From positions 124,001 to 188,000 of the forward strand of contig CAMPDV010000268.1 of assembly GCA_946699065.1 (NCBI GenBank): a DNA stretch of 64,000 nucleotides. The letters run 5' to 3'. Positions 1 to 41,929 of this stretch are shown here, piece after piece. Every line of letters begins with the position of its first letter. The stretch's first letter is position 1. Made by a program: the position numbers and the translations under genes. Source of the DNA: Loxodes magnus (Eukaryota; Ciliophora; Karyorelictea; Loxodida; Loxodidae). The notes under the pieces are model-generated. The model had not been told where the DNA came from and did no database searches. It was given only the letters and a program-made list of their open reading frames with translations.

Positions 1-1188
1 CTGGTTTAGATAAATATTTGGAATATACTGATGAAAATTGCTATAACATGTAGCATAATTGGCATCTTTATCTAAGCTTTGCAAATATAGAGTAACGTAA
101 TTGAACTGGAATTGCTTAAACATATAACTAATGTGAGTTTTATCATTTTGACTGAAGAAACAAAGAAATGTTCAAACACGTGCTTTGAATTTTGACAGTT
201 AAATATGGGTGCAATTTCAGAAACGAACTTTATGAAATTACTAAGTTCTGAGTTTAGAATAAATTTAATTTTGAGTAATAATAATAATAGTAAACTAAAA
301 GTAATTAAAGTTTAGCATTCCCTGGATTTTCAACCAGGTTTTTGCTACCATTTTTTTAGCGTGGATGGATACCACGCCATTTTTTTATGTGGATGGAACC
401 ACAGAGGATCTTCCGTCTTTTATGTGAATAGTTTTCTCTTGTAAATCCCTGTTTAGGTTATTCAGAGTCTGCTGAGTATGCTTAACGTTCTTTATTGTTC
501 TTTTATCTAAATTTATCTTCACTAATCGCAATTTTGTAATAAGTGTCACTTTGATTTGCAATAATAGCATTGTTTGCCTTGTTTTTTCTTGAATCTCTTC
601 AGAAATACTTTTTTTTCAAGTTAATCGATTCTTTTGATTAAATCTATATTAATCTTTTAGTCATTCTATTTTTCTTAAACGTTTGCTTATGTAGAAACAT
701 TTTCGATAATCATATTTTGTTCTTGCTTAAAATTCGATTGAGATTATTCATATAGTTACTATTCCGTGACTAGATTATTCTAAATCAATTATCGTCTAAT
801 TATTAGAAGCTCGTTATTTTAATCTTCGATAGTATTCATTAGTTCTCTTATTTTTTCCCCTTGGTTGTAAATTGTTTCCTAATAATTTTGTATTATTGTT
901 TTCATTTGTCAAGCTATATTTATATTTCGGATTATTTTTATACCTTTACTGGATTCGATTCTATTGTTCCGATTATGATTTTTCCTTCAGAGGAGGAACT
1001 TGATTTATCTTCTTCTTGTTGTTGTCTCTGCATTTGTTTTGCAGCTTTCCTTTTTGCGTTCTTAATTTGGTTTTTGGAAAGGCGAATAGATTATTCCATT
1101 TTTTTTTAATTTTGAGTAATATGAAATAAAATATGATGAAGCAAAATACTGAGACGATATTTATAATTATATAAAAAAGATTAAATGA
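1..1188 (+). pseudogene. 3' end of glycosyltransferase-like gene, split by retroposon A
   Basis: Frame 3 of the first 279 bases, resumed at base 1121, encodes the C-terminal region of the same protein as the intact minus-strand gene at 34362-36095. Shared blocks are CYNMQ, TYNQCEFYHFD, ILTVKYGCNF and, after the insertion, YWDDIYNY. Reading needs TAA/TAG as Gln and TGA as Trp. At bases 60-62 this copy has TGG where the other copy has TGA. Four more TGA codons (before TG, after FD, before IL, after KF) are TGA in both copies. The frame is identical on both sides of the insert once one copy of the target duplication is removed, so the gene was whole before element A landed. A TGA at 1186-1188 is a candidate stop. 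The 5' part lies outside the window. Enzymatic role is inferred only from the intact paralogue. Confidence 0.75.
280..1106 (-). mobile_element. gag-only retroposon, copy A
   Basis: Insertion of about 0.83 kb flanked by the direct repeat TAATTTTGAGTAAT at 266-279 and 1107-1120 (up to 16 bp if shared T's count). On the minus strand it begins with an oligo-A run directly before ATG (1099-1097), encodes a Ser/Gln/Lys-rich start, then in another frame a long Gln/Asn/Glu-rich coiled coil, then a CCHC zinc knuckle at 569-528 (CYYC, three residues, a TGA codon, His, LLQN, Cys). One frame change separates start and coiled coil, so this copy is probably dead. The 3' end holds a perfect hairpin (arms GCGTGG and CCACGC, 359-377) and an ATT-repeat tail next to the target duplication. 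No reverse transcriptase or endonuclease is present, so movement must have been in trans. Confidence 0.8.
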
Positions 1189-2218
1189 ATAAGAATAAAA
1201 TATAGGAAAACTTTTAAAGGAAAATAGTAAAATTCTCTAATTTTAAGAATAAACTATAATATTATTTAAATTAATATATTTTATAATAAATATCTATAAG
1301 TCTTAATTCTCAGTAATTAAAGTTTAAATATTTAGGATTTTTATTAATTAAATTATTTCTAAATAAATATTAATTAAATATATTCTAAATAAAATAACTT
1401 TTTTATATTATAATGCTTCAATAAACTATATTTAGAAAAACTTATTTAAATGTCTTTAAAATAATATATTCTTTAATATAGTATGCTAAGTAATCTTTTA
1501 ATAATAAGGAATCAAACTTTATATTTTTAAATTCTATAAAATAAAGGCTGAATAAACTAGAAAAATAAAGTTATAATTTAATTAAAAAAATTAAAAATAT
1601 TTGAAGAAATAAAATAGTTTAGTTTTATATAAACTAATAATGATTAATTTTGTACAAATAATTTGTATAATATAGTTCATATTTAATTAATATCCAAAAA
1701 TTATAATTAAAAATTGCTTTGATAACTAATAAAATTAAAACTAATTATTTAAATATTTTCTTTAGAGATTTTTTCTCCTTAAAATAGTAAAAAGTAATTA
1801 ATTTACTTTAGTTTAATTTATGCAAAGAAACTTAAATTTATAAAAATAAAAAAATAATATACTTAAAACAAAATCTATTTATTTAAAAATATACGATAAA
1901 GCTATTAAATTGTATTGATATAGGTTTATTAATTAATAAGTTATCTAAATATTTAATTAGTATTATATTCTAAAGTATTTTTAACAATAATATTAAAATT
2001 AAAATATTCTTATTTAATTTAAGAGACTCAATAAGAATTGATTTAAATTAAAAATTAATGATTAGTATAGAAATGTTTATTATTTTATATTAAGAAACTT
2101 TTAATTAGTAAATATTTAACTCTAGTATTAAAGTTAATAAATGTATATCTTAAATAAGAAGTATAAACTAAATTTAGGATATAAACTTAAATAAATATAT
2201 TCTAATAAAGGTATAATA
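1189..2218. other. A/T-rich intergenic DNA, nothing recognised
   Basis: Almost pure A/T with no motif, repeat boundary or protein-like segment I can support. Confidence 0.5.
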
Positions 2219-3664
2219 ATACATAACCATAGTTATTTTATTTGTCTATTTAACTTAGTTAAATTATTAATTTCAATAATCAAATAAATACAAGTTAGTT
2301 ATTATAAAGAAATAATTAAATCCATATTAAAACAAAATTAATTTGTATATAAGTTTTACTAAAATTAATATAATTAAATATTATAATAACTAGAATTAAT
2401 AAATACTAATTTATTTAAAATATAAGCAGACTATAAAGTTAAAAACTATATATAAAATGCAGCTTTAAAATTATTATTATTTTAAATATTTAATTATCTA
2501 AACCAGATAATTTAATTGTATAAGTAAATAGCAACTATTATCTCTAATGATAAATCCTTATGTTTAACTTTAAAGTTATAAATCTAAAATATTTCATAGT
2601 AAATAAAATAAATGCTATTAAATTATTATTAACATCAAAATCCCTAAAATATTAAGAAAGATAAAATTATCTATAATTAATAAGTATAAATGAAGAGTCT
2701 AGTATTTAACGATTCCTCTCTATTAATAATATTAATATTAAAAATTAAATATTTATAATTTATAGCAATCTTAGCAAAGAATTATTAAGCTAGAATTATT
2801 TTTTCAAAATGAAAAATGAAAAAACTAAGTAACTGAGAGATTTATTTAGACTTAAAAATCCTTTTTATTATATTACAATTTTTATTTTAAAATATAATTT
2901 AAACTAAGAAAATTGCATTATTTTTTCTATAATAAAATTTTATAATAAAAATCTACGGTAAAAACTAAAAATGCATAAGATAAATAATTTTAATTTTCAA
3001 TAGAAATGATTTATGTTAATTATTTAAAATTTTATCTATAAATAAGTTAAATCAATATAATTTTAACAAATGTTTAAAGTATATTTAATTTTTGTCTTAA
3101 GGCTTTATCTTAATTTTTATTTTTTATTTAGTATTTCTTTGGTATTTATTATTTTTGCTATTTTAATATTATCAGTCCTAATTTTAAATGAAATGCTATT
3201 ATTTTTTAAATTAAATATAGTTTTTTCTTTTAAAAAAATATTATAAAATTTGGTTATTTTACTTAAAATAGATTTGAAATAATAACCTCTTAGTTGCAGT
3301 ATTTTAAAAAGTTACATTATTTAAAATTTTTAATAATCAGATCTTAGAACTTGATTTTAAGGTATTTTTTAATTATCTATTTTTTAAAGCTTAATTAAAT
3401 AATTTTATAATATATTAATTAAATAAAATGTAAATAGATCTTATATGCAAATCCTGTTCTGATCTGATTATTTAGATTTTAAAATTCCTTTAGTATTATA
3501 ATGTGGTCATACTGCTTGTCACTTATGTTTAATTGATGAATTCAGATAATTCAAGATTAATAAATACAAAAAATGCCAAAGCATATAGTAAATAAGTCCT
3601 TTAAAGCTGTAAAAGAATTTTTTTATGGTAAATGAAATCCTAAAGCAATTAAATATTAGGCAGA

Positions 3665-4640
3665 AGAAAAAAAATGGTTGAAGGTTCCAAGTCAGGCTTC
3701 TATACCACCTCTTCCTAAGCCAAAAAGGAAGGGAGGAAGCAAGAAACCAAGTCTTAATAATCTTAACAATCTTCTCTATCACAACCTTAACCAACACTGA
3801 ACTAACAACTTGGAATCTAACAAAATGAAGGAAAGCCAACCTTGAAGAATATAAACACGGAAACTCCAACCTCAAGCGAGAAACCGAGGAAACAGATGAA
3901 GTCTGTTCTCCATCAGTAGGTATCAGAGTTCAACCCTTCTGGCCAGATGAGCATGGAGTAGCTCATCAAAATGGTACTGAACCTCCAGGAAGAGGTCAAG
4001 AGATTGAAGAAGGACAATGATATGCTGATGGCAAAGCTAGACCTAGCAGAAGGAATTGAGTCAAGACTTATGTCCTTGGAAAGAGATCTTAACGCCTTTT
4101 GGAATATCTCACAAAGTCAGACTAACGAATCCTAAAATTAGCTTTAGAAACAGACCGAACTGGATAACAGACTCGGAAAAGTAGAAGAGAAATTGTAAAC
4201 TTTTAAGAAAGAGTAAAGCGAAACTGGAGCTATACAAATGGAAATCGAAGCCTAGAAAGAGCAAATAAATCTAGGAAAATAATTAAAAATAAAAAAAAAA
4301 TGTTTCTACCGTGGAAGCGTATGACATTTTTATCGGAAGTGTTAGAAATTCTAATAGAAATAAAGAAACTATTGGATAAAAGAACAACAAAAGAAGAAAA
4401 AAGAAGAAGCAAGAATGAAAAAAATGTATTGAAACCCAGATGGTTCAATATACAAGATTAAGATGGAATCAAGGCAAGTTAAAGGAGGGAAAAACTGGAA
4501 AAATCTGAGTTCCCAATCTCGCTAAAATTGGGCGACCCGAACTTTTATATTTAACAGCAGGGAGTATGAACTGCTGTCTTCCTGACGGGGTTGGAAATCC
4601 CTAAAACGGAAAACTTAAAATTAATATTATTATTATTATA
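3665..4640 (+). mobile_element. gag-only retroposon, copy B (best preserved)
   Basis: A 976-bp insertion flanked by perfect 14-bp target duplications AAATATTAGGCAGA at 3651-3664 and 4641-4654. The duplicated locus at about 28703-28716 keeps the empty site with one base different, so both ends are known exactly. The element begins with nine purine bases before ATG 3674, carries one gag-like frame, a 3' hairpin (arms CAGCAG and CTGCTG near 4553-4575) and ends in an ATT/TAT simple repeat. The start so close to ATG and the simple-repeat tail fit target-primed reverse transcription of an mRNA-like RNA. It encodes no enzyme. Confidence 0.9.
3674..4585 (+). CDS. gag-like protein, coiled coil plus CCHC zinc knuckle
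   Basis: One continuous frame with TAA/TAG as Gln and TGA as Trp. Residues 1-80 are basic and Gln-rich (starts MVEGSKSGFY). About 85-205 is a coiled coil with LQEEVKRLKKDN and ESRL...ERDLNAFWNIS. A zinc knuckle sits at residues 210-223, encoded by 4301-4342. The second Cys is Arg here (TGT to CGT), and a TGA codon precedes the His. A Lys-rich stretch and a GKNWKNL motif follow. Trp143 (4100-4102) is TGG here and TGA in copy E; the NYW Trp (4373-4375) is TGG here and TGA in copy F. Such proteins bind nucleic acid in LINE ORF1 and retrovirus-like gag; that role is inferred. The stop is unsure: TGA at 4430 or 4583 are candidates. Confidence 0.75.
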
Positions 4641-5046
4641 AAATATTAGGCAGATTAATAGAAAATTAGAAGAGCTAATTTAAAATAGAAAGTCTATATA
4701 AGAAATAATGAAATAGATATTATTAAACTAAACTTCTATCTTATATGATATCTTGCAGCTTTTAAATTAACTACTTTTCCAGAAAGTAAATAAGTAAACG
4801 AAAAACTTTATCAATTACTATTAAATTTGGACCAAAAGATAGATACAGTTAAGATTCTCTCTCAAGATAATCCCAACATTAAAATTTAAACTCAAGATCT
4901 AAAAGTAACTGTTGATCTTAATTAATTTTAAAGCATTAAAAATCTTGGAATTTTAGAAATTTAATATTTACAATAAAAAAGACTAAAATTTCAAAGTTTT
5001 GTGTAACTTTTATCCTAACTTAAAAGAAATTAAGTTGATTAAGTTG

Positions 5047-5604
5047 AAACATTAGAATAAATAAAAGTTAAGTGACTCATTCATAAATATAGTAATGAAT
5101 TTTAGTTAAATTCTATAATTATTTTTTTCTAAATATATACTCTTTGATCTCTTTTTTTCTGATTAAAGCATTAATAGGGAATATAAGCTCAGAACAAATA
5201 AACCATTGAAATTTAACATCAGTTTCTTAAAGTTTTAGTTATTTTAAAATTATAAATCTTAATATTAGTTTTTTAATTTGTCATAAACGACTTCAATTAC
5301 ATCCTGCCTATAAAAGTTAAAAAATAGACATGTTAATAGAGCTATTTTTAAAATGAAAGATAAAATTGACAATAATTAAATAACTCAAGATAAGTATAAT
5401 TAAGTAATTTTCGCTCTTATAAGAATAGAACTTAAATCGTTAAGTAATACGTTTCTTAAAATAATAAACTTTATTTTAATTTTCTTTATTCAATTATATA
5501 AATTTTAGTGAATTAAGTTTCGAAGCATTTGAAATAAAAAATTGTATTATTTTATTTGAATTGAATATGAAATAAATGCTATAAGCAAAAATAAAAAAAT
5601 AATT
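5047..5604. other. intergenic, 3' flank of the Myb-like gene
   Basis: Between the end of duplication copy 1 and the 3' end of the minus-strand Myb-like gene. The part near 5541-5604 still resembles the 3' flank of the paralogue at 50635-50700. No gene seen. Confidence 0.4.
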
Positions 5605-7149
5605 TCACTTAGTACTTTAGTAGTTATTGCTAAATGCTAATTCACTTTCAGCTAAATAAGTCTTATCACAGCCTTTTATCTCATTAATACCTTTATCCTA
5701 TCGAGAAGGTTAGAGTTTCTCGTTTAACAACAAATAAGGAATTCAGTGATCTTGAACTATTCTTTCTTAAAATTCTTGCTCTTTTAAGCAAATTTGTTAA
5801 TTCACCAAAGTTTTTACCTTCTCTTTTTCTTTTAATATTAACTCTTCTGCGGCTAACTATTAATAATTTTCATAATCTTAATATTTAAATGGAAATTATA
5901 AAATTTGGGAGAATTAATCTTCTTTTATTTATTTTTCTTCTAAATATAAGATTTTATTTGTTTCTCTATTGCTTTCTTTAAAGAAAATTTCACTATTCGG
6001 TATTTATGAATATTAGGACTTTTGTTTTTCTTAAAGTTTCTAGTTTTTTATTTTAACTTTATCTTTCGTTTTAGTTTTCGAAATGCTATTTAAAATAGTT
6101 ATTTTTGATTCTTTTTTAAAGTTTCTTTTTTTATTTTTATTTTTTTCATGTATACTGCTTTATTCATTTTAAATTCCCAAAGCTTACTATTCATTTCGAA
6201 CTTAAGAATGACCACTTAAATCTTGAAGTGATGATAAGCTTTTATCTTCTCTTTGTATTTTTTGTTTCTTGATTCTTTCCGTATCTTCTTTACTCTCAAT
6301 ATCTTTTTAAATTTTTAAAGTTTTTTATTAATTAAGATTGAGTTTTTAAAGACAAGCCATTAAATTTACTCGATTTATATCTATTCCATTTTTTTTTAGT
6401 TAATTCAGCAAGCTCTTTCCTCTATTCCTTGTTTTATGTTCATTTCTTCCTTTCAGAGATTTCGAAATAAGAGTCCACTTCGATCCTACATTTAAATATT
6501 ATTACATCAAGATAATATCTTCTTCTAAACTCCAAGGTCCTTTATTGATAAGAGGGTTTAAGTGATTATTTCACCTTTCCTTTACTTGTTTACTCTTTCT
6601 TATCCGCTTCATGTTGTGAATTTTTTTATTTAGAATTTAGCTTATATCATACCAAGATTTTTTCTAGCTATCTAGCATAATCTTCTTCGTAATTTCATCT
6701 TCCTCATTTAACCATTTGATTTGATGTGTGAAACGATTTTCATTGTTATATTGGCTTTGATTTCTTTAAGCTTTGATAAAAATTTAATTTTATAAATTTT
6801 ATTAAATTTTATTAGATTCTTTAATTTAGTCTATTTAAAGTAATTACGGGTGAATTTTATTTCAGTCGATTATATGAACTTAGCCATTATCAAATTTAAT
6901 ATTTTTCAAGAGGATCAAGGCAGATTCATCTATAACTCTAATTTGTTCAGTATTGTTTGTAATATCTTCACAAATATCCTGTTTTCGATAATCGTATAAA
7001 TCTGTATTATAGTCATCAAACTATAAATCTTAAAAATCAAGTTAGTTTGACAGCTAGAAATTGTCCTCATTAAGCTATGATGAAATGATATCCTAGGATA
7101 GATGGTTCTCAAGTTAATAGTTAGCTTAACTATCTATTATTTCTTCCAT
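5605..7149 (-). CDS. R2R3 Myb-like DNA-binding protein, copy M1
   Basis: A single frame of 514 codons from ATG 7149 to TGA 5607-5605, using TAA/TAG as Gln and TGA as Trp. Residues 1-140 are acidic and Gln/Asp-rich. Two Myb repeats follow: first IKWLNEEDE...SWYDISQIL...QVKERWNNHLNP, second KGPWSLEEDIILMQ...SKWTLISKSLKGRNEH. The remainder is Lys/Gln-rich. The Trp of ERWNNHL is TGA in all four copies in the window, exactly where Myb repeats have an invariant Trp. It aligns over its full length with M3 (49102-50634), including the C terminus, so selection has kept it. It probably binds DNA in the nucleus as a transcription regulator. No transposase domain is visible, so I take it for a multicopy host gene. 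Confidence 0.85.
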
Positions 7150-13390: not shown

Positions 13391-14240
13391 ATGGCTCCTA
13401 AGAAATAATCGAATAAAAACTAACAGGACATCGATTAATAAAACTCTCTAATCGAAATATACTCCTAGGAGCTGAAAATAAAAAATTGTAACAATCACTT
13501 CTAGACTTAATTTAACGACTAGATTCTCTAACTTTTACTGTACAACAACTATAAAATGTAAATCAATTACTAAAAATGAAAATCAGCACTAAAACATCCA
13601 ATTCTTAACTTATCTAATAACTGGAAAAAATGGAGTTAAAATAAAAAGATAACAACAAGCAAAATAATTCTGAATAACTTATTTCTCCTCATAACGATCC
13701 TATGGTAGTGGAATAGCAGTATTCCAAAACTTTTTCTAATCGAAAAAATATTAAAAATGGAAAAAATGTTGAAAATGTAAAATTAGGACATATCTCCAAA
13801 AAAGGCACAACAAGATGTTTCTTTTGTTAAAGAAATGGACATATATTTAAAAACTGCTGGCACTTTTAGAGAAAACAGAAATAAACAAGTCTAAAGTTAT
13901 GAAATGATATATCTAAGTTATGCTGTTCCCCAGAAGGAATACTTTATAAGAAAAAGGCATACGGTGGAGATTAATTACTATTGGATATAGTAAACGCTCA
14001 AAAAAGAAGAACGAGATAAATGTTTGGACCTAATTGAGATTGAAACAAGATTCCTACTGTCAAGAAGGGATAAATTAGCTTGAGTCGATACGTGATAGAA
14101 AAATGTGAGTTTAATAATTCGAGAGAAGAATGGAGCGACCCCATGAGGATTTGAGAAAACTTATAAACTAATTCCGTGACTAACCTAAAAAAGGAAAAAA
14201 TCACGTAAATAGATTATTATTATTATATATATTATTTTTT
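13391..14240 (+). mobile_element. gag-only retroposon, copy D (MAPKK subfamily)
   Basis: Starts ATGGCTCCTAAGAAA (MAPKKQ). After frame changes a PHNDPMVVE block leads into an intact CCHC knuckle at 13816-13857 (CFFC, QRNG, His, IFKN, Cys) followed by Trp encoded TGG (13858-13860), where copies F and L have TGA. The 3' region carries a hairpin (CGTGA and TCACG arms near 14171-14206) that the non-coding element at 25786-26255 shares, and ends in ATT repeats. The 0.5 kb repeat N1 abuts its tail. Target duplication is ambiguous because both flanks are TATTA-rich. Confidence 0.7.
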
Positions 14241-14735
14241 TAAAACCGCCATAGTAGTTCGAAGGTGAGCAACAAGGTCATCTTCATCAGAGGTTAGGGA
14301 AGTTAAGTACCCATAATCGACGTTATGTCTTCCTCTGCTTTGATTTGGCCTCTAGACATAAGATTCTTAGACCTTCGGCACTGGCTTAGTTTATATTTAA
14401 TTCTGGAACGAGAAAGAAATAATATTGCGAGCTTCATCAGAGATGGGGAATTTAAGTACCCATAATTGACACATGTCGTCCTCTGCTTTGGTGATGCAAT
14501 GAGACACAATCCTGCCATGTCCTTGGACCTCCAACAAGTAGATAAGAATACGAGTATTCTAAAATTATATCAGTATTGAACATTTTTATCAGTATTGAAT
14601 AATTATACCAGTATTGAACAAGGCTTATCAATATCTGATAATTTCATCAGTATCAAACATTCTTGTCAGTATGAAACATTTTTTTTAAAGAGCTGCGCGC
14701 CAACGAGAGTGCTATGCGCTCTATAATCAAATTTA
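14241..14735 (+). repeat. 0.5 kb repeat N, copy N1
   Basis: About 490 bp also found at 24731-25226 (inverted) and 37794-38290. Three parts occur in order. First, two direct copies of a roughly 55-bp block around TTAAGTACCCATAAT, each framed by TCATCAGAGGT and CCTCTGCTTT. Second, about six degenerate copies of a 19-bp unit built on ATCAGTATTGAACAT. Third, a terminal hairpin with arms AGAGC and GCTCT at 14689-14722. Its GC content exceeds the surroundings. Frames in the two directions are not kept between copies, so I read it as non-coding. Element O2 carries the same terminal hairpin. Confidence 0.85.
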
Positions 14736-15309
14736 TTTATTTATTATTTATAAGTAATTTGATTGCTTCTTTATTTCAAATCACTATTACATAGTCTTGT
14801 TAAAGGAGTAATTGAAGAAAATCTTAGTTAAAATTTGTCCGTCAGTTGGAGTGCAGATGCCCTCTTCTTTAAAATAACACTAGGAATAAAAAATTTCTTC
14901 AACTAGAATACATTAATTCTACTACATCCATTGATAATCATATTGCATCATTTGCTATTTATTTAGAGTGAACTAAAAGTTGGAAAGAACTTTTTCCAAT
15001 AAGATATGTTTATAAAGTTGCGAATGAGCATAATGATTAGAATAATTAAGCTATTTAAACATTAAGCTCTCTTTAAATAAAAATAATGGTAAAATGTAAT
15101 TTTCATTAAGTTAATAGCTGTTTATTAGTTTCTCTTGCTAACTACTAGAGACTTTATTTAATTTAATTAGCTATTTATTAATTTATTTAACTTTTAAATT
15201 AAAACATTTTTTGGTTAATTAACTAATAAACTAACTGTAGCAAGTGAAAGATAAGCTATCAGATAAACTTTTAAATATAATTGGAGTTGTTATAGCAAAA
15301 TAGAGAATA
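14736..15309. other. intergenic, imperfect inverted repeat only
   Basis: Contains an imperfect inverted repeat around 15118-15260 (TTATTAGTTTCTCTTGCTAA against a rough reverse complement near 15225-15250). No gene recognised. Confidence 0.35.
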
Positions 15310-18244: not shown

Positions 18245-19850
18245 ATGGATGACAATAATTCGTAAAGTATACATTCATTAAACTTTGAAAACTTTTATTT
18301 TGAGAACTAAGATAATCAAAACATATTTTAGGGTGGCTTATAATTAAAAAGATGGTGGGAGCTGAGATTGACCTTCTAATCATACTTTCTGATTTTATAG
18401 CTAGGAACAAGTTCCTTTCCTGTCGCTGAGAAAGTCCCTGGTCAAAGTCAACCTTTGCAAGGGAACGCCTTCCTTTTGATTATCCACTCCTGGTAGGGGC
18501 TTGAAGCCTGGCTGCCCATAGCGATGGAGCTCCCTGGCAACTGCTTTTCGAAAGCAACAGGATATTCCCGTTATCCCATGAAGGGAGTGTTGGGGTCGTT
18601 AAACTGCAAGAAGTTGCAGTCCAAAACTCTTTAAGTTAAAATTAATTAATTTAGGCTGGCTTTGATGAAAATTGTTTCTTACTACCCAACTAGCATGATT
18701 TCTAAGAATCGCATTTTGATTTTTAAGATACAGATTTATATGAATTGGGAAAGCAGAATGTTAGCGAAGATTTTACAACAATTGTTACTTAACTTGGAAA
18801 TAATGATAATCCAGACTTCTATAAATGTAAAAAAGAGCAATATGAAAATAGCTAAAGCCAAATACTTGATTAGAATAAAATCCACCAGCAAATAAAATAA
18901 GCAGACTAAAGAGAAGAATTATCTTAAAATAAATCAGAATCATAAAAGCAAATCCTTATCAAAGCTCAAAGGAATCAAATTAAGTACAATAATGAAAACC
19001 GCTTCACTTTACAATCTAAATGATCAAAAGAGGAAGGTTAGCTTCTCTTGGGTATTATGTAAGATAACTAGGAGCTTTCTTGAATTTAAATAAGCTAGAT
19101 TCTAAATGAAAAGATTCACGACAGCTAACAAGTGAGGAAGACCAAATATGTAAAGGAACGATGAAAGAATCACTTGGATCCTTTTGTCAACAAAGGACCT
19201 TGGACTTTAGAAGAAGATATCATCTTGATGTAGAAATTTTAAAGCGAAGGACCTAAATGAGCTCATATTTCAAAGTGTTTGAAAGGAAGAAATGAACACA
19301 AAACAAGGAATAGAGGAAAGGGTCTTTTGAAATAACTAAAATAAAACGGAGTTGATATAAATCATGTAGATTTAAAATAATTTCTACAGAAATTAAATAA
19401 TTAAAAAAAGAAAATATAGCAAGAAAATACAAATGAAATACTTGAAAAAAACGTAGATAAAAAATTAAAAAAAGAAGTAAACAAAAAATTTCGAGTAAGA
19501 AGAATCTTAAAAAAATATTAATTTGCCCACAATGCAAGAAGTGAGATAGTAACTTTTAAATCATAATCAATAGGCATTTAATACAAGTAATGAGTAAAAC
19601 GCTGAAAAACCAAGTATAAAAAGGCAAGGAAGAACCAAAAAGAAAACGAACAAATGTAAAAAATTAAATTCAATTTAGTTAAGAAATCAAGAGAATAATT
19701 GAAGATTCCAAAACAATAAAACAGATGAATAGGAAATCTCTAGTAAGATTAAAAACAATTAAAAGAAAGAACAAAAAAGAAGATGAAAAATTGAAAATGT
19801 TTAAGTATAGAGCAATGAAATAATTTAAATACAAAAAATTTTATTTTAAG
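18245..19850 (+). pseudogene. Myb-like gene, copy M2, broken
   Basis: Starts MDDNNSQSIHSLNFEN, of the M4 type. It is interrupted by a 309-bp GC-richer element at 18340-18648 and resumes at AGFDEN. Both Myb repeats are readable, and four conserved Trp positions are TGA: 19021-19023 (M3 has TGG), 19081-19083 (M3 has TGG), the ERW site (TGA in all copies), and 19258-19260 (M3 has TGG). Position D-x-NKIH is TAG here but TGA in M1, M3 and M4. The C-terminal tail shares NLPTMQEV with M4 after a frameshift in an A-run near 19485-19495. The insertion plus the frameshift make it non-functional. Confidence 0.8.
18340..18648 (+). mobile_element. SINE-like GC-richer element inside M2
   Basis: Flanked by TTTAGGGTGGCTT (18327-18339) and TTTAGGCTGGCTT (18649-18661), a 13-bp target duplication with one mismatch. 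The M4 paralogue shows the uninterrupted reading. The element starts AATTAAAAAGATGG, much as the gag elements do, is far richer in G and C than its surroundings and ends with a perfect hairpin (arms CTGCAA and TTGCAG, about 18603-18618) and an A/T tail. It contains GGTAGGGGCTTGAAGCC, resembling a pol III B box, and related cores occur at 25786, 60165 and the window end. It is probably non-coding. Confidence 0.65.
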
Positions 19851-24572: not shown

Positions 24573-24730
24573 TATATATATATAATAATTATAGCAGTGA
24601 TAAACGTAATAAACAAATTGGAGGAACTTTAAAATTATTTAGAAATTTATATACATAAAATTAGCATTTAGATTGAAACATTTATTGATAGATTGAAAAA
24701 TCCAGTTAAAAGTTCAAATTAAATAAATAA

Positions 24731-25226
24731 ATTTGATTATAGAGCGCGTAGCACTCTCGTTGATGCGCAGCTCTTTAAAAAAAATGTTTCATACTGACAA
24801 GAATGTTTGTTACTGATAAAATTATCAGATACTGGTAGACCTTGTTCAATACTGGTATAATTATTCAGTACTGATAAAAATGTTCAATACTGATATAATT
24901 TAAGAATACTCGTAATCTTTAATATTTATTGGAGGTTCAAGGACATGGCAAGGTTACGTCTCATTGCATCACCAAAGCAGAGGACGACATGTGTCAATTA
25001 TGGGTACTTAAATTCCCCACCTCTGATGAAGCTCGCAAAAATAATTTCCTTTTATTTCCAGAATTAAGTCCAAATTAAGCCAGTGCCGAAGGTCTAAGAA
25101 TCTTATGTCTCGAGGCCAAACCAAAGCAGAGGAAGACATAAAGTCGATTATGGGTACTTAACTTCCCCAACCTCTGATGAAGATGACCTTGTTGTTCACC
25201 TTCGAACAACTATGAAGGTTTTAAAA
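24731..25226 (-). repeat. 0.5 kb repeat N, copy N2 (inverted)
   Basis: Inverted copy of 14241-14735, with the terminal hairpin at 24741-24773 and the two roughly 55-bp blocks near 24970-25030 and 25110-25175. It lies just upstream of the 5' end of gag copy J. The plus strand can be read as a protein (starting at 24942), but the frame is not preserved in the other copies. Confidence 0.85.
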
Positions 25227-25785
25227 AATATATAATAATAAACTAATTAGTTGAAGATTAAGTAGATAAATATTAAAATAAATTTATTTAATTAAAATTT
25301 ATGTTTAATTAAGATTTTTCTAAAATAAAAACTATCTTTGAACTAATTATTTAAAAGTTATGACAAGACTAGTGGAAAATTATTTGCTCTTGGTATTATA
25401 TTTTCCTTATAATGTTTTTATGAAATATTTATTAAAGCAAAATAAATAACTAATGAGATGAAGAATCATTAAATTTTAGTTTAGACAATAATATCTAATA
25501 TATTCAATAAAATAAAAAAATAGGAAAACATTGAAATAATTTGTTTCTTTACTATTACTCAAGTAGGAATTGATAATTAATTTTTGGATTAACATTTGTT
25601 TGATTTAATCTTATCAAAAAGTAAGAATTAATAATTGAAAATTTTAAGAAATATAAATAAACTATTAAATTTGTTGATAATAAATAAAATACAAATTCAT
25701 ACAAAATTATATTAAAATAAATAAATAAAATCTTATTTTCAAAAATTTAGCAGCCTAAACTAATTATTAAATATATATATTAAAT
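25227..25785. other. intergenic, nothing recognised
   Basis: A/T-rich spacer between repeat N2 and element O1. Confidence 0.4.
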
Positions 25786-26849: not shown

Positions 26850-29111
26850 AATACATAATTTATCATAGATATTTTATTTGTCTATTTAACTTAGTTAAAC
26901 AACTAATTACAATAATTAAATAAATACAAGTTAGTTATTAATAAAAGAGATAATTCAATCCATATTAAAGCAAAAATAATTTATATATAAATTTTACTAA
27001 AAAAAGGAGTTATAAGACCGTCAATATCATATGAAAGTCCTTAATGTAAATGTGGAAAGTATGACACTTTTGATCATATAATGATATGTATGTATTATAA
27101 ACACTTAAAGGGACTGATTTTTATAACAGGTTGGGAATCTTGATATTAGGAAATTAATAATTTACGATCAAATATATATTAATTAATTTCCTAGGAAGTA
27201 ATTAGATTATTTAGGTCTTTATATAAAAAATTTGCACATAAAGCTTCTATCTTTCAGAGTGCAATTTTTGGATGTGATAGATGGAATTGGAAGAGTAGAA
27301 TTAAAGTTTAACAAATTTAAAAAGAGAGAATAATGATTTGTTTTTTTAAATACTTTTAAAATGTCTTTGATTGAAAGAAGTATTTCTTACAATTAAAGAT
27401 GTCCATATACACTTATAGTTAAAATTAATTATAAATTAGACTAAAATTATAGATTATATAATTAAATATTAATAATAATTGTAAATATTAAACATAATAT
27501 AATACTAATTTATTTAAAATAATAAGCAGACTATTAATTAAAAATTATATATAAATATAGCTTTAAAATTATTATTATTTTAATATCCCTATTTAAAAAA
27601 GATAATTTAATTTTATAAGTTATTATCAAACTATTATAAACCTCTAATGATGAAACTTTAAGTTTAACTTGAAAATCAAAAATAAATAAAATAAATGCTA
27701 TTAAATTATTATTAACATCAAAATACCTAAAATATTAAGAAAGATAAAATTATCTATAATTACTAAGTATAAATCAAGAGTCTAGCATTTAATTATTTCT
27801 CTCTATTAATAATATTAATATCAAAAATTAAATATTTATAATTTATAGCAATCTTAGCCAAGAAATATTAAGCAGAGTTATTTATTTCATAATAAATAAA
27901 AAATTAATAAAATTAAATTTCTAATAAATTTATTTAGACTTAAAAATCTTTTTTATTATATTACAATTTTTTATTTTAAAATATAATTTAAACTAAGAAA
28001 ATTTCATTATTTTTTCTATAATAAAATTTTATAATGAAAATCTAAAAATCTAAGGAAAAAACTAAAAATTTATAGTATTAATTAAATGCAATTTTCAATA
28101 TAAATAATTTATGTTGATTATTTAAAGTTTTATCTATATGTAAGTTAAATCTATATAATTTTAACAAATTTGTACGAAATAATTTAATTATTATTTTAAG
28201 CTTTATCTTAATTTTTATTTAATAATTCTTTAGTATTTATTATTTTGATATTTTATTATTATCAGTTCTAATTTTAAATGAAATGTTATTATTTTTAAAA
28301 TTAAATAAATTCTATTATTTTCAAAAGCATATTATAAAAGATTGGCTATTTCACTTAAAATAGATTTGAAATAACAGCCTCTTAGTTTTGATCAAATCAT
28401 AATATTATACTTTAATTTCTTTTTAATTATCTATTTTTTAAAGCTTAATTAAATAATTTTATAATATATTAATTAAATAAAATGTAAATAGATCTTATAT
28501 ACAAATCCTGTTCTGATCTTTATTATTTAGATTTTAAAACTCCTTTAGTATAATAATGTAGTCATACTGCCTGTCACTTATGTTTAATTGACGAATTCAG
28601 ATAATTTAAGATTAATAAATGCAAAATATGCCAAAACATATAGTAAATAAGTCCTTTAAAGCTGTAAAAGAATTTTTTTATGGTAAATGAAATGCTAAAA
28701 CAATAAAATATTAGGTAGATAAGTTGAAAATTAGAAGAGCTAATTTAAAATAGAAAGTCTATATAGGAAATAATGAAATAGATATTATTAAACTAAACTT
28801 CTATCTTATAGGATATCTTGCAGCTTTTAAATTAACTACTTTTTCAGAAAGTAAATAAGTATACGAAAAACATTATCAATTACTATTAAATTTGAACCAA
28901 CAGATAGATTCTATTAAGATTCTCTCTCAAGATAATCCCAACATTAAAATTTAAATTTAAGATCTAAAAGTAACTGTCGATTTAAATTAATTTAGAAGCA
29001 TTAGATTCTTGGAGTTTTAGAAATTCAATATTTAGAATAAAAAAGACCAAAATTTAAAAGCTTTATGTTGCTTTTATCCTAACTTAAAAGAAATTAAGTT
29101 GATTAAGTTGA
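26850..29111 (+). repeat. segmental duplication, copy 2
   Basis: Partner of 2219-5046. It keeps the empty insertion site of retroposon B (AAATATTAGGTAGA about 28703-28716) and carries its own insert, a LINE 3' end at 27004-27439. Unlike copy 1, the gene continues past the duplication edge into a Kelch domain, so copy 2 is likely the ancestral arrangement. Confidence 0.85.
27004..27439 (+). pseudogene. 3' fragment of a non-LTR retrotransposon ORF2
   Basis: Present in duplication copy 2 only, bounded by ACTAAAA-like sequence at about 26996 and 27440. The frame starting at 27006 reads GVIRPSISYESPQ, then CKCGKYDTFDHIMIC, the Cys/His motif found at the C terminus of R2-like LINE reverse transcriptases (C-x-C-G ... 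T-x-x-H-I ... C). A basic tail with IFGCDRWNWKSRIKV follows, with TGA read once as Trp. The 5' end is missing, as is usual for target-primed reverse transcription. It is the best candidate in the window for the family that supplies the enzyme to the gag-only elements, but I see no shared 3' end with them. Confidence 0.65.
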
Positions 29112-30013
29112 GAATGTGGTTAGAAAATTCTTACAGAAAGAGTAAAATAGTCTAAAAAATTATAAAGAAAGCAAATTGCTTTCAGTTAACTAAAAGAAAA
29201 ACTTCATTCATATATTTGATGATTAAAGTAAATATCTTCATTTATTCGACCTAGAAAATGAAGATTACAAGAAAGTTAAAGTACAATAAGCTGTGCCGAA
29301 ATATTATAGAAGTATAGATTATTAAGATGAAATATACATTGTGGGAGGAACTGTATAAAATCAAGTTTATAGAACTACCTGAAAATCATCATATGAAGGA
29401 GTTTGTAAAGCGCTTGGAGATTTAAATTATGCTAGATAATTATGTGGAATAACTGCAGCTAAAGAAAATATAATTGTAGCGGGAGGGATTTGCAATGAAT
29501 AAGTATTGAAATCAGTAGAAAAACTACAAATTTAAAATGATGCATGAAATAAATGCTCTGATATGCCTTTTAAAGTTTACTTATAAACATTATAAGTTGA
29601 CAAGTCTGAACAGAATATTTATTCCTTTAAAGGTAGAATAAATAAAAGCATAACATGGATAAAATTTTTCAGTATAATAGTTTAAATGATTAGCGGATAA
29701 TAATGGAATTCAGTATTCCTTAAGCTTTAGCAACTTCAGCCGTAATTATAGATCCTTTAATAATTTTTGGAGGTTATAATAAAGAAAATAAAATTGACTC
29801 TAATAAAATATACAAAAGAAAATACTCCGAATGAGAAGAAGGCTAACTTCCAGAAAGATGTTGAAGTTGAACAACAGCAAAAGTAAATGGAAATTTTGCC
29901 TATTGTTGATGTATTCTAAAGAATAGAAAGATTCTTTCTTAGTTGTGAAAACTAATGTTGAAACATTGGATTCTGAAATTATTAGAAAAGTAAGACAGTA
30001 AAAATAAAACAGT
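28482..30013 (+). CDS. RING finger, coiled coil, Kelch repeat protein, copy 2
   Basis: From ATG 28482: RING-like CSHTACHLC then KCKIC (28545-28630), but the first pair has lost a Cys (YKSC; copy 1 has CKSC). A coiled coil follows (LEELIQNRKSIQEIMKQILL), then Kelch repeats: EIYIVGG, NIIVAGG, NDAWNKCSDM, IIFGGYN, EWEEGQLPERCWSW. Kelch Trp positions are TGA at 29380, 29545, 29832, 29862 and 29868. A candidate 53-nt GT-AG intron lies at 28851-28903. Another frame change near 29100 is unexplained, and one missing base in a T-run at about 29665-29669 shifts the last blades. RING plus Kelch suggests a substrate-binding ubiquitin ligase. The Cys loss and frameshift suggest decay or a sequence error. 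The 3' end is approximate. Confidence 0.7.
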
Positions 30014-30394
30014 ATTTGAATAATTATAAAATAATTTTTTCTTTATAATTATGATATAAATAAAATATTGTCATTATTTTATTATTATTTTAAATAAAGC
30101 CAATTTTTTAAATATGATGAAAAATAAAATTTAGCAAGCTAAAAAATAAATATTAATTTGATAAAAAAATTCCAAAATTTTTAAAATCTTTTAAGCTAAT
30201 AAATAATAAAATTTTTTTAAGTTAAATATTTCAATTTATAAATCTCTGAAAAACTAAATATTATGTCATGCTTAAATTTATCTATGCTGTAGGTTTCATT
30301 TTGTTTATTTTCAGCAAAAATTTATGAAATTTTCTTCAAAAATGATATAAAAATCTAAAATTTTGAACTTCAATATATTATTAAATCATTAAAT
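30014..30394. other. intergenic, nothing recognised
   Basis: A/T-rich DNA between the Kelch gene and the 3' tail of gag copy H. Confidence 0.4.
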
Positions 30395-34361: not shown

Positions 34362-36095
34362 CAAGTAATTATAAATATCGTCTCAGTATTAAGCTTCTTT
34401 ATATTTTATCTAATATTAACTCATGTTGAAGCTATTATTCACTCAGAATTTAGCAATCTAGAGTAACTCTTATCTAAAATTGCATCCATACTTAACTGTT
34501 AAAATTCAAGGTAAATGCTTAAATATCTCTTCATTCTTTCAGTCAAAGTGATAGAACTCACATTAATTGTAAGTTTCTCCCACTCCTGTTCAGTTGTGCT
34601 TTTCTATCAAATCAAAACATAAATAAAGATGTCAATTAGCTTGCATGTTATAACAACTATCCATTATGTAGTTTTTATTCTTTTCTAATCCTCCAATAAG
34701 CTGCTAAAAACTAGGTTTTAGTTTAAATGTTCGATAGATTTAGAATAGTTTAGTGATATTTCCTTATTTTTCAAACCAATCTTGTGTTTTGTTTGATATA
34801 AAAAGTTCATCATACCCAATTCATAAATCTTAAACTTTAAAAATTTCATGCATCTTATTTATTATAAATTCTTTCTTTTTCTCTATCGACCAGTCAAATA
34901 TGTCAGCTTAGTTAAAGAAGAATCTAGCAAAATCTTCTGCATAATATGACATAAAATAAAACAATAATCTTTGGTAAATTTTTTTTTCTTGGAAAATGAA
35001 ATTTTTTTTTCTTACTTAATAGAAATCTTTCCAAGTATGGAAAAACTTATATTTAAGCATGTCATGCTTGTAGAAATCTAAACAGTTAAACTGAATAGTA
35101 TCAACATCTCCTTATAAAATGAAATCATAAGATTTGAAGAATATAGGGATGAATAATCTCAATATCTAGCTCCAACTTTTAAATTCCGTAGAATTTTACT
35201 CAAAAGAAACTGGAGAAGCTATTTCAAGAAAATTTATTTTAAATCCCTAACTTTTTATCCAGTTTAAATGTTCTCTATAATTAGGAAGCTTTCATTCGCT
35301 ATTAGTTCCTTAGAGAAAATATACAGGTTCATATCCACAAATTTTAGATTAAATTCCAGCTAAAGGTAAAAAGAAGGCGTAAATAGAGGGAGTTGCTGAA
35401 ATAGTTTAGTATCTTTCTTCTGGAAAGTTTTCTTTTTTCTGAAATCAATTTTTATTTATTTGCTTACATTATTAAATTTGATCATACATTTCCAAAATCT
35501 AACTAGGCTTTTCAATTGTGTCGTTACCTTCTCTTCACTAGGAAAAAATAATGTCTTTTAAATAAGAGAATCCAAACTTAGAAAGAATTTCTTCAGTTGT
35601 TAAATTCAAATTAATTCCTTTTTTCTTTTTATATCTTCTCTAGCTTTGAAATAATTATGATTTTTTATTATAAGTCTACTATTTTTTTTACTAATTTTAA
35701 GCATTAGATAATCAAGTTACTGAATTTATTTTATTTCTTTTAACTTTTTAATCCAAAGTTATTTTCTATTAGATTTATATTTAAGCGCCTTCTTTTTGTT
35801 GTTACTCTCTGTCTTTTTCTTTTTAATTCATTTTTAAGGATTTGTTGAAATAGTTAACTTGCTAATCTTATTGTTAGCTATTTTATATAATGCTCCTATT
35901 TAAGCTTCTTTCTAAATCATTTATATATTTAATATGATTCTATAGCTCTTAACTTTGTAATCTTTAAGTCATCATAAAAATAGGATCTGAGTCTCTAACA
36001 ATTTGAGGAAGATTTTCTCTACAGGAAATAAAGACAATAAAAGTAATAATAAGTCCGAAAAAGCATATAATGGCTATATCTCTTTTGGCATTCAT
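34362..36095 (-). CDS. type II membrane protein, glycosyltransferase-like
   Basis: A single frame of at least 577 codons from ATG 36095. Residues about 8-24 form a membrane segment (IAIICFFGLIITFIVFI) right after a short basic start, as in type II Golgi enzymes. A Gln/Asn/Lys-rich stem follows, then a globular part with ICGYEPVYFLQGT, HLNWIKSQGFKINFLEI and FILQGDVDTI. D330-V-D332 looks like a DxD metal/nucleotide-sugar motif. The C-terminal block ANWHLYLCF...HNWTGVGETYNQCEFYHFDW is shared with the fragment at 1-1188. TGA serves as Trp eleven times and TGG five times, with no frame damage. Family assignment rests on topology and DxD only, so it is tentative. The stop is not identified; the conserved part ends near 34362. 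Confidence 0.7.
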
Positions 36096-37793
36096 ATTTA
36101 TTTAGTTTAAGATAATAAAATTTTACGACTTAGATTAAGTTAGACACAAATACTAATACTAGAAGCATTTAAATAATAAATTATAAAGATATATTTTTGT
36201 TTTAGTTATTTCATGTTTATTATCTATTATAATTTTCTATTTTTTTTCTTAAAATTTATTGTCTTTTATAATCTTCATCTTGAATATGAATGTTTATTCT
36301 TAATTAGTTAGATATACTTTTCATTCTGTTGAAGGATATAAACTTAATAAATAAAAATTTATTTAATTGTTTTTGCCTAAATTTTTAAATGCTTTTTACA
36401 TATGAAATGATAAAGATTATATTATATTAATTAGTTAAAATTTTAAGATTTAAATAGTTTGAATACGCTACTTTTATGATTTTCTTAAATATAATAATTT
36501 TAGTTCTGATTTATAGCTAGAATATCATATAAATTTTGTTTGCTACATTAACGCTTCTTAAATTTATTAATTACCGTATTAAATTTATTTATTATAATAT
36601 ATTTTTAATTTTTGCAGCCAAAGCTTTTTTGAATAAATTAGTTTTATTATAACTATCTTAATATAAAATTATAAAGATCAAGTTTATTCCTTTCCTTCTT
36701 TAGGTATTTTTATTTAAGATTTAGCTTTATAACTACATTTCTTTTAAAATTAATTATTAAATAAAAAGTTTAAAGAATTTAATAACTAACTTAAAAATAT
36801 CCTCTTAATAAGCTACTTTAGTATTACAAATATTCTTTGACTGAGTTGTTTAAATAAATTAAAAATATTCATTATATTATAGACAAGTTTGCTTCTATCT
36901 TCATTTATCAAAATACGATTTAAGCTTTTCCCCTTTTTATTTCTAAATAAAATTAAAATTTTCATTTTAAGAATTCATTTAGAGTATATCTTATAAAATA
37001 AAAAAGCTTATAATATTGGTTTAGAGTTTTGGAACCTTTTAACTAAAGCTATTAAATATAATGGTTAAAGAATTAAGAATATTTAAGCATTTAATTAGAT
37101 TTATAAAAACTATATAAAATATTAACTAATGTAAAAACTTTTAAAATAATCATTATCCTATAATAATGATATAGATGAGAATAAATTATTTCATTTATAG
37201 CTTTAATACCTTATCTGTAATAAATTTGTTTAAGGTAAATATCAAAATCTAAAATGTAATTATTTTTCAAAATAACTAATAAATCATTATACATTTGCTT
37301 TTATTAGCAATATTTGAAAGTTTCATATCTTTTTTATTCTTTACCAAATAAAAATAATCTATATAAATTCTCCTTTCTTGCTATTATTTTCTCTGTTATT
37401 TGAGCAAACCTAAAAAGAAAGATGAAATAAACATTAGATGAAGTCGTTAAAAAGTTATTTTATCAATTTTGCTTGTATAAAGCACTACTTTTCAATTTTT
37501 ACTTATAACAATAATAGATAAATAAAGAAGAGAATTTGCTCTAGATCGAATTATCTCTCCTTAATAAAATTGGTTATTTTATAATTATCAACTTTAAATT
37601 TTTAAATTTTAACTATTTATTCAATTTTATAAAAAAGAAGAAAGCAATCTTTAACAGAACTTTTGCAATAATTTAATATAATTTATTTACTATTCTTTAT
37701 TAATATTTCTATTTTAAAATTTTATTCTGACTAAGTTTATTTTAATCAAATAGTAACTTTAATTGAACAAAATAAAATTTTATTATATTTATT
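36096..37793. other. intergenic, nothing recognised
   Basis: Upstream of the glycosyltransferase-like gene, whose promoter should lie at the left end. No other supported feature. Confidence 0.4.
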
Positions 37794-38290
37794 AAATCGC
37801 CATAGTTGTTCAAAGGTGAAAAACAAGGGACGGCTTCATCAGAGGTCGGGAAAGCTAAGTACTCATAATCGACTTTATGTCTTCCTCTGCTATGGCTTGG
37901 TTTCGAGACATCTGCTAGTTTGACCTTCGGCACTGACTTATTTTAATTTTTTAATTCTGGAAATAAAAGGAAATTATTTTTCCGAGCTTCATCAGAGGTG
38001 GGGAATTTAAGTACCCATAATTGACACATGTCATCCTATGCTTTGGTGATGCAATGAGACGTAACCCTGCCATGTCCTTGGACCTCCAACAAGTATTAAA
38101 GATTACGAGTATTCTTAATTTATATCAGTATTGAACATTTTTATCAGTACTGAATAATTATACCAGTATTGAACAAGGTTTATCAGTATCTGATAATTTT
38201 ATCAGTAACAAACATTCTTGTCAGTATGAAACATTCTTTAAAGAGCTGCTCACCAACGAGAGTGCTATGCGCTCTATAATCAAATTTACT
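37794..38290 (+). repeat. 0.5 kb repeat N, copy N3
   Basis: Same orientation and internal order as 14241-14735: the two TTAAGTACCCATAAT-type blocks (the first altered to CTAAGTACTCATAAT), the degenerate 19-bp ATCAGTATTGAA array, and the terminal hairpin at 38242-38275. It is followed by A/T repeats related to those flanking N1 and N2. Confidence 0.85.
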
Positions 38291-41279
38291 TATTTATCTT
38301 AATAAAAGTATGAAATAAACAAATTAAAAAAGCTAATTTTATATTTAATTGAAAGAAAAATATTAATAAAACAGTGAATTTCTAAATTAGTTAAATTATA
38401 TATAATTAGAGAAATAAGAGATAAATTAAATAAAAAGTTTCAACTATCATTTAAATAAAATAAATTTAAAATATTTTAGAAGTTTAGTTCTAAAATATTA
38501 ATTACAAATAAATTTTAACTAAATAGCCATATAAATAAATTTTAAAAAATTACTAGAATACAGTCAAAAGCTTATAAATAAAATAAATGTTTTTAGAACA
38601 AATTTTAGAGATAAACAAAATAATAAAGAAAAACTGAAGTTGTATTTTAAAAAGAACAAAACATTTAAGGATTTTTAAGATAAATTACAAATAAAAGAAA
38701 TACTGAGAGAAACTTAGAAGCGAGTAAATTAAAAAATACTTCAAGACTTTAAAATCAGAAAAAGAAAAATTAATTATGGTTTTAAATGAATGAACAATAT
38801 AAAGCATTTAGCTTTTGACCAAACATTTATTTTATTTAATTTCATAAATAGTTATATTAAATATCATATAAACATATGGCTTTTATTTTGAATAAAATTT
38901 AAATTAATTATAATCTTTTAAACCTATAAAAACTTTCATTAAATATTAGAAGCAGTCGTTATTTATTTTTACATAATAAAATTATAACGATCACTCTTCA
39001 AAAATTTGATGCTTCTACGAATTTATTTAATTAAGTGTAAAGTAGTTGTTCTGTTATTCACTATATTAAATCTTTTTAAAAATATGATTAATAATTTTGG
39101 ATATCGGCATATAGCAGAATCTGTTGCTATACAACAAATCTATATGTAATAAAAATAATACCTTTTTATGTTAAAATTTTATCTTATATTCCTAGTAATT
39201 ACTCTAAATAAAATTTCAAACAAACAAAAAATATAGCAAATTTCTCCTATAATTAATAATTAATATCTTTAATAAGGCTACCAAAATGATTTATTAATTA
39301 TTGTAATTTATAATAATTTGAATTATAATCCTTAAACTTATTTTTTAAATAGGTATGTTAAAGTAAAAATTTAAAATATAAATCAAAAAAGGCTAATTTA
39401 TTTGGAAAAATATTTAATTTTATTAAATTTAAATTTTGCTTTAAAACTTTTATATGATTTTTGAAAGTTGTTTTGTATGATAAAATTTTCCTGAAATCAA
39501 CTCAAATTTCATTAAAAATATCTTTAAAAGTTCTAGAATAAATCTTTTTAATAAAATAAATATTTTAATTTAAAGCTATTAAAAACTGTAAAAATATAAT
39601 ATTTAATAAATAAAAATAACTAAAGGAATATTAGCACATTGATTGGTTCATAAATAGAGATATATTATTTAATAAAAAATTTAAAAGTCAAAGAAAAACA
39701 AAATAAAACTTAAAAATAAATTGAGACGTTATTTACAAAACAGCTTATAACTAAATATAAAAAGTTTAATATTTTTAAAAAAGAATCAAATTATATAAAA
39801 TATCAAATCATATTATATTAAAGTTAAATCATATTTTATGAAATTTAATTAGTTAGGTAAAAAATATAATAATTAGAACACTTTTTAATCTAGTTAATTA
39901 ATTAAAAATATTTTAATATTTGCATGAAATTTGAGTTCAAAAATAGATTAATTTATGAAATTAATTTAAATTCAAAATATTGTAGAATTAAAAAAAGTCT
40001 AGAAAATATTATTTAATCATTTAAATAAAAAATTAAAAAAATAAAATTGATGAATCTTGATGATTATAAAAGACATAAAAAGATGTCTTACAAGAAACAA
40101 AAAAAAATTTTCATTGTAAAAATAAAATTTATAATGTAATTAATCAATGATAAAATTAATTAGTTAACTTAATTTACATATATATTAATAAAATAAACTT
40201 TTTCATAAAATATCTGAATATATTTTTAAACAGTTTGTTATATATAAAAGATAGTTATAATAAAATATTTTAATACTAATAAAGCTTAACTAATAAGAGC
40301 ATTATGAATTAAAAAAGACATTTATGAATAGCGAATTAAAATTAAATTTTTACTTTAGCACGTGAATAAATAAGAAAAATAAAAGGAGTGATATGTCGAA
40401 TATATTATAAATAAAAAAATAATCAAAAAATTAATTTAAAGTTTATATTTAAGTTAATAATTTTACAATTTTAATTAATAAAATTATATATGAAACTTAG
40501 ATTCAAGTGAGTAGAATCAATTTATTTTCTTATAAAATTTATTTAAAAATTAGATTTAAAATAAATAAACAATTTCATTAAATTTTCATAACTAATTAAT
40601 AGCTATTTTTAAAGAATATCTTTAATAAATGATTGCATAATAAAAATTAAGAGGATTATTTTTTTATTTTTATTTGTTTTTAATCTTAAAACTTTTTCTA
40701 TTTCGTAGCTATTGAATTAAGCAATTTATTCGTATCTTGACAAAGATTTAAGTCATTTTGATTAATGATTTTATTTAGTGGTATGAAAAGAATTTAATTT
40801 AATTTTTGATAGAAATCTTTTAGTAAACTTATATGGCTACTTTTTAACAATTTTTTAATTTATTTAGCAATATTTTCAAATTATAGTACTAAGAGCTCCG
40901 ATAATAAGAAAATTAAAAAATTTTAGTATCAAAATAAAATTTTTTTATGTATTACAGTGATGCTCTTCCTTAAAAATATATTATAGAACCATAAAAATAG
41001 AATGAAAATATTAACGTAGCATAAAATCGTTTCTTAGTGTGCAAATGTATTTATGCATTATAAATGTATTTATTATATTTAGTAGATAGAATTAAAATTT
41101 CATATTTTACTTCTTAGGCTTTTTATTTTCTTAAAAAAATTAAGTAACTACTTTTATTAACTTTATTATAGATCTAAAATCAAATTTGTTCATTAAAATT
41201 GAAAAGATGCTTTATGAAAGAGATATCCATCATAAAAATACTTTAGATTATTTTTTTTTATTATTAAAATTATAAAATA
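38291..41279. other. intergenic, nothing recognised
   Basis: About 3 kb of very A-rich, low-complexity DNA. No motif or paralogue seen. Confidence 0.4.
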
Positions 41280-41865
41280 TCAAATATCTACCTTTAATTC
41301 TTTCTTTATTGCTCAAATGCTATATCTCTCAAAATTTAATACCAACTATATTTTTATTTTTGTATAATGTTTCGTTTGGAGTGCATATTAATTACTAAAC
41401 GATTGTCATAATTTTAAATTTTCTTGCTATTATTTTCATTCAAAATATCTGCAGTATCTTACAATATGACCAAATCTTCTGTAGCATAATCATTACTTTT
41501 TTCTCTTATATATAAAGAAATTTTTTCTTATCTTTAAGTTCCTCATCCATAGTATCTTTCATGGATACGCTTGAAAGAAATATGCTTTCCTTCAACTCTA
41601 CGAATTAATTAAACTTTTTTTTAATTGTTCGATTATCGAAATTACTAAAAATCCATTTTATTTTTTATTCTAAAACGTTAGAAATAAATATATGATTTTT
41701 CCTTAGAGTTCTTATACATGTCTTTAAGTTTAAGATTTTCTCTTGCTTATTTTTAAATTTTTTAAGTATATTTTGATAATTTTATTCTGGTTGAGATGTT
41801 TCCTTTTTTTTTGAGGAAACTTTTTACAAAAAATTTTACATTTTATTATTATATTAAAGATATAA
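41280..41865 (-). mobile_element. gag-only retroposon, copy L2 (minus), head-to-head with copy L
   Basis: The minus strand from about 41850 carries a Lys-rich coiled-coil frame (SSKKKETSQPEQNYQNIL, MKDTMDEELKDKKKF), then in another frame a knuckle whose second Cys is lost (LCYRRFGHIVRYC). The next block ENLKL-TGA-QS is also found, with the same TGA, in copy L. Similarity to L includes the untranslated start (AAAATATACTT). Two sister copies back to back make an inverted repeat. No 3' hairpin or target duplication found. Confidence 0.6.
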
Positions 41866-41929
41866 AAAATGAAAAATTTCTTGCTAAAAGTCTCCTCTAA
41901 ACAGGATCCATCCAAATCAAATTATGATT

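Follow-up and report, generated by a model that had tools for sequence, protein, structure and literature searches.

A single codon that means both tryptophan and stop within one nucleus is among the strongest departures from the standard genetic code. Condylostoma magnum (NCBI table 28) is the species in which all three of TAA, TAG and TGA can terminate translation; in the Loxodes DNA described below, by contrast, only TGA was seen in this role, at the few gene ends examined. Condylostoma resembles our case in that all 64 of its codons can be sense and in that a tRNA-Trp(CCA) with a 4-bp anticodon stem has been reported from it (excerpts of PMC13092985). Such codes were described for Parduczia and Condylostoma, with UGA assigned to tryptophan by mass spectra and ribosome profiling, and one or all three codons also stop in two species described there (PMC4967479, in part). 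Karyorelicts, Loxodes among them, use table 27, in which UGA is the sole stop and also encodes tryptophan; the same source reports that coding UGAs are depleted for ~20 codons ahead of the stop and gives the macronuclear (MAC) assembly of Loxodes magnus as 706 Mbp and rich in retrotransposons (excerpts of PMC11441545). Blastocrithidia nonstop and Amoebophrya sp. ex K. veneficum, which belong to other lineages than Loxodes, likewise read TGA as tryptophan with a 4-bp-stem tRNA-Trp(CCA), while Blastocrithidia differs in using TAA and TAG for glutamate and TAA as its stop (PMC12153298, in part).

Here, we analyzed a 64,000-nucleotide stretch of L. magnus DNA (the window; contig CAMPDV010000268.1) together with the whole assembly (705,730,643 bases in 7,843 contigs). 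It is almost certain that this nuclear DNA is translated with table 27, that is, TAA and TAG as glutamine and TGA as tryptophan and as stop, most likely with a 4-bp-stem tRNA-Trp(CCA) at work and presumably with eRF1 acting near the 3' end. A previous sequence-only reading of the window had claimed that TGA is tryptophan alongside TAA/TAG as glutamine. This claim is supported for internal codons by paralogue pairs, by alignment to solved outside relatives (Myb and DNAH1 structures) and by dynein columns across the genome, but it overlooked the stop role of TGA, at which Myb M1, Myb M3 and both eRF1 genes end. The code is thus ambiguous, and it is better described by table 27 than by one in which TGA always means tryptophan. 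We found no difference from the karyorelict code of Parduczia sp. and Loxodes. Since the dual meaning of TGA in karyorelicts, including Loxodes, is already published, our result is a correct rediscovery, and its present use is to confirm the code from raw DNA alone. Gene finders miss genes in ambiguous codes unless told of them, and real genes are truncated if table 6 or 11 is used to translate the window.

Tryptophan at internal TGA codons

The sequence-only reading listed TGG codons that face TGA in paralogues, and all seven TGGs and eight TGAs were found where it had placed them. The letters were confirmed for the glycosyltransferase-like (GT-like) pair (TGG at 60-62, TGA at 34634-34632) and for gag B 4100 (TGG) against gag E 15687 (TGA). 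They were likewise present for gag B 4373 (TGG) against gag F 16648 (TGA) and for gag D 13858 (TGG) against gag F 16618 and gag L 43138 (TGA), but similarity is low in the flanks of the 4373/16648 and 13858/16618 pairs. When seven paralogue pairs (six Myb and one GT-like) were compared codon by codon, TGG was the partner of 10 out of 31 discordant TGAs in the coding frame. The corresponding counts for the remaining five frames were 1/41, 1/115, 0/40, 2/50 and 3/56; coding-frame pairing of TGA with TGG exceeds chance. The remaining 21 partners (7 Gln, 3 Lys and 11 others, a count that includes diverged 3' ends) weigh against the table 27 reading.

With TAA/TAG read as glutamine and TGA as tryptophan, a Myb gene with two repeats is present four times in the window, and all four copies exceed the cut-off of a Pfam Myb model; a protein search returned one weak match only. 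M1 (5605-7149, minus strand) runs from MEEII to STK-TGA, M2 occupies about 18.5-20.1 kb (plus), M3 spans 49102-50634 (plus; two Myb repeats, TGA at codons 96, 193, 507 and 511) and M4 is similar to M3 in part (57440-58606, plus). Three TGAs of M2, at 19021-19023, 19081-19083 and 19258-19260, align with M3 TGGs at 49537, 49597 and 49774, respectively. As the sequence-only reading had claimed, the invariant tryptophan of the ERW(N/K)NHL motif is TGA in each of the four copies: at 6571-6573 in M1, at 19162-19164 in M2 (ERWKNHL, 19156-19176), at 49678-49680 in M3 (ERWNNHL) and at 57998-58000 in M4 (ERWNNHL), which has a further TGA in DWNKIH at 57707-57709. The preceding arginine codon varies (AGG/CGA/AGA/AGA). 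For comparison with solved structures, TGA was translated as X, hence its reading could not bias the alignment. The ERW TGA of M3 aligned with tryptophan in all five solved Myb chains printed, among eight matched. Selection is purifying in most Myb pairs with internal TGAs (three of the four measurable), with dN/dS of 0.29 for M2/M3 (275 codons), 0.33 for M1/M3 and 0.36 for M1/M4; the value for M3/M4 was 0.70.

A GT-like gene at 34383-36095 (minus) forms one open frame under table 27, with 10 coding TGAs and 5 TGGs. The label is that of the earlier reader; neither a protein search nor Pfam returned an outside relative, and the PDB match was at chance level. The 3' part of a paralogue lies at 3-284 (plus) and extends upstream of the window; it is frame-damaged or intron-bearing. 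Synonymous sites of the pair are saturated (pS 0.91, pN 0.20, 94 codons). Four of its five tryptophan positions are TGA/TGA and one is TGG/TGA. With the pair extended upstream and all overlapping frame alignments counted, there were 7 TGA/TGA, 3 TGG/TGA and 14 other pairings, including three positions that are TGA/TGA in one frame and non-Trp in another.

Next, we turned to conserved genes across the genome, in which the sequence-only reading had proposed tabulating the residues aligned to internal TGA; the tabulation revealed an enrichment of tryptophan. When the assembly was searched for the dynein linker family (PF08393), 46 matches were returned, and exons from the 30 best-scoring ones were aligned with TGA as X (12,127 codons, 52 TGA and 249 TGG). 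Tryptophan was the commonest residue of the column for 44 of the 52 in-frame TGA cells, where 2.2% is expected; a simple binomial gives P of about 9e-65, a figure that ignores the kinship of rows and is best read as very small. Mean tryptophan frequency was 0.72 in TGA columns; TGG columns, for which each codon's own row is included in the count, gave 0.68. The eight TGA cells in non-Trp columns count against the table 27 reading. Columns of TAA/TAG resemble those of CAA/CAG in residue profile (583 and 257 cells), and the frames with internal TGAs follow the family along about 400 of its positions. For one dynein (L064), three structural alignments were printed among 75 matches: all seven TGAs fell on tryptophans of the DNAH1 chain 9fqr_X1, six of seven on those of 9d2f_U (the last lies at a ragged end) and six of the six covered on those of 8j07_g6, where the alignment ends before the seventh. 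Collectively, internal TGAs at tryptophan positions in dyneins speak against TGA as a stop only.

tRNA-Trp genes and the reading of UGA

The genome has two kinds of tRNA-Trp(CCA) gene. A 73-base search gave 131 candidates, 40 of which were scored, and 34 of the 40 lie in tandem on one contig (C148, 155434-165068), mostly at ~241-base spacing. The four copies sampled from this array of 34 (L077-L080) are all tRNA-Trp(CCA), and in each the uppermost pair of the anticodon stem (27:43) is replaced by a U x C mismatch, which leaves four pairs. The unpaired U26 and C42 of Amoebophrya match this mismatch (PMC12005148, in part), and excerpts of PMC13092985 and PMC12005148 describe the 4-bp-stem tRNA-Trp(CCA) as raising UGA readthrough in reporters and as occurring in Loxodes. 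TAA and TAG are read as glutamine, and TGA inside coding sequence as tryptophan; in our proposed mechanism, the latter reading is most likely due to this shortened-stem tRNA. Full 5-bp stems also exist, in three tRNA-Trp(CCA) genes on contig C110 (L071, L072 and L074), and count against decoding by the 4-bp stem; a further gene, L073 on C7736, has its stem broken at another pair. We consider it rather unlikely, though conceivable, that there are two functional classes, in which the array reads UGA and UGG and the 5-bp genes UGG only, and in which the relatives described below may show identity switching; if so, the frequency with which UGA is read would be determined by gene dosage.

We also considered whether a dedicated tRNA-Trp(UCA), including UCA genes outside our search pattern or a tRNA imported from mitochondria, decodes TGA. 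Such a tRNA is the simple expectation, and the sequence-only reading had asked for its gene, but one UCA pattern found no match genome-wide. Its CCA twin matched 5 of 10 tRNA loci tested, including all four array copies, so that the pattern misses some tRNA-Trp relatives; on this evidence a UCA decoder is improbable.

The same region of C110 (361709-473962; L071, L074, L075 and L076) carries tRNA-Trp relatives with CAT (Met-like) and CCT (Arg-like) anticodons, which adjoin 5-bp-stem tRNA-Trp(CCA) genes and are 85–86% identical to the tRNA-Trp genes there; identity switching or pseudogenes are possible explanations. In a genome-wide RF00005 search, 63 of 42,786 candidates were scored. These 63 best matches (C64, C78, C103, C158 and other contigs; L009-L038) are partly in tandem, at spacings of about 527 or 1,753 bases, and many share one identical score. 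The 12 loci scanned held no tRNA-Trp; all were tRNA-Lys(TTT), two of them also with tRNA-Ala. For the window itself, no tRNAs or Rfam families were reported.

TGA at gene ends and eRF1

M1 and M3 are alike up to STK-TGA and SAK-TGA, respectively, after which similarity vanishes; the shared TGA lies at 5605-5607 in M1 and at 50632-50634 in M3. M3 has an additional TGA four codons upstream of this shared end (50620-50622, codon 507), where M1 has TAA, and M3 may therefore end four codons early. Two eRF1 genes lie on one contig, L082 identified as such and L083 so named from its near-identical translation. Both reach DEDFL-TGA, with further TGAs just behind, and the stretch translated holds 19 TAA/TAG codons and no internal TGA. 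This end presumably corresponds to where eRF1 ends in other species. The best PF03463 match (L081) proved to be Pelota rather than eRF1; its one in-frame TGA may weigh against the table 27 reading. All four gene ends examined against a relative (M1, M3 and both eRF1 genes) are TGA, and neither TAA nor TAG was seen as an end among these four. Compared to human eRF1, the Loxodes protein has GRAQNIKSR for GTASNIKSR, alanine for a nearby glutamate, and FLCENTF where the human YxCxxxF motif reads YLCDNKF; we take these altered sites, beside NIKS and in YxCxxxF, to be ones that contact the stop codon. Near the mRNA 3' end, eRF1 would win over the tRNA and TGA would terminate; this position-dependent choice between tryptophan and stop is adopted from published work.

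For the GT-like gene, the sequence-only reading had counted eleven TGAs and five TGGs. Both counts hold, but the eleventh TGA (codon 571, 34383-34385) is probably the stop, which leaves ten as coding. Past codon 571, the sequence is AT-rich (19% GC vs 25%) and the frame, which was read for 700 codons in all, shows no other TGA; the nearest coding TGA lies exactly 20 codons ahead of the probable stop.

It is very improbable that TGA is always tryptophan and never a stop, with ends marked by some other signal, or that TAA and TAG also stop as in table 28, although a minority of genes may still end at TAA or TAG. Many frames do read through TGA, yet M1 and M3 cease to resemble each other after one TGA, each eRF1 copy terminates with DEDFL-TGA and has TAA/TAG inside, and the published rule has TGA as the stop (excerpts of PMC11441545). 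The weakest alternative, a table 6 code in which TAA/TAG are glutamine, TGA is a stop only and internal TGAs have arisen by nonsense mutation as copies decay, can draw on the divergence of M2 toward its 3' end, where TGAs are unmatched to tryptophan, on the frame shift in the GT-like copy at the left edge of the window and on the fact that, in this AT-rich genome, one transition turns TGG into TGA, but it may be discounted almost entirely against dynein-linker TGAs that fall on tryptophan columns in family-matching frames and on tryptophans of mammalian DNAH1, an ERW TGA common to four Myb copies despite differing arginine codons, and dN/dS of 0.29–0.36 in three of the four measurable pairs.

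Other features of the window

Two further placements of TGA in the sequence-only reading fared less well than those in the Myb genes. It had put TGA at Kelch-repeat tryptophans. In the Kelch frame at 28900-30300, whose match is weak (E about 2e-4) and contains two TGAs, the TGA at 29545-29547 (plus) does align with a Kelch tryptophan in three of three matched PDB chains, but the second aligns with a non-Trp residue. TGA at a tryptophan of a LINE reverse transcriptase was not confirmed, there being no reverse-transcriptase Pfam match in the parts of the window scanned, that is, all except 1-3,811, 4,577-5,320 and about 27.1-27.9, 31.8-34.4, 44.6-49.1 and 50.6-57.4 kb, with some stretches covered on one strand only. 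Gene finding by codon usage was too weak to tell frames apart. We also noted a weak SIP1/Gemin2 family match at 41000-43500 (minus), with E of 0.0005, below the cut-off. Lastly, a dispersed repeat family at 14236-14745, 24699-25228 and 37788-38300 shows similarity across several frames and in either orientation, and is probably non-coding.
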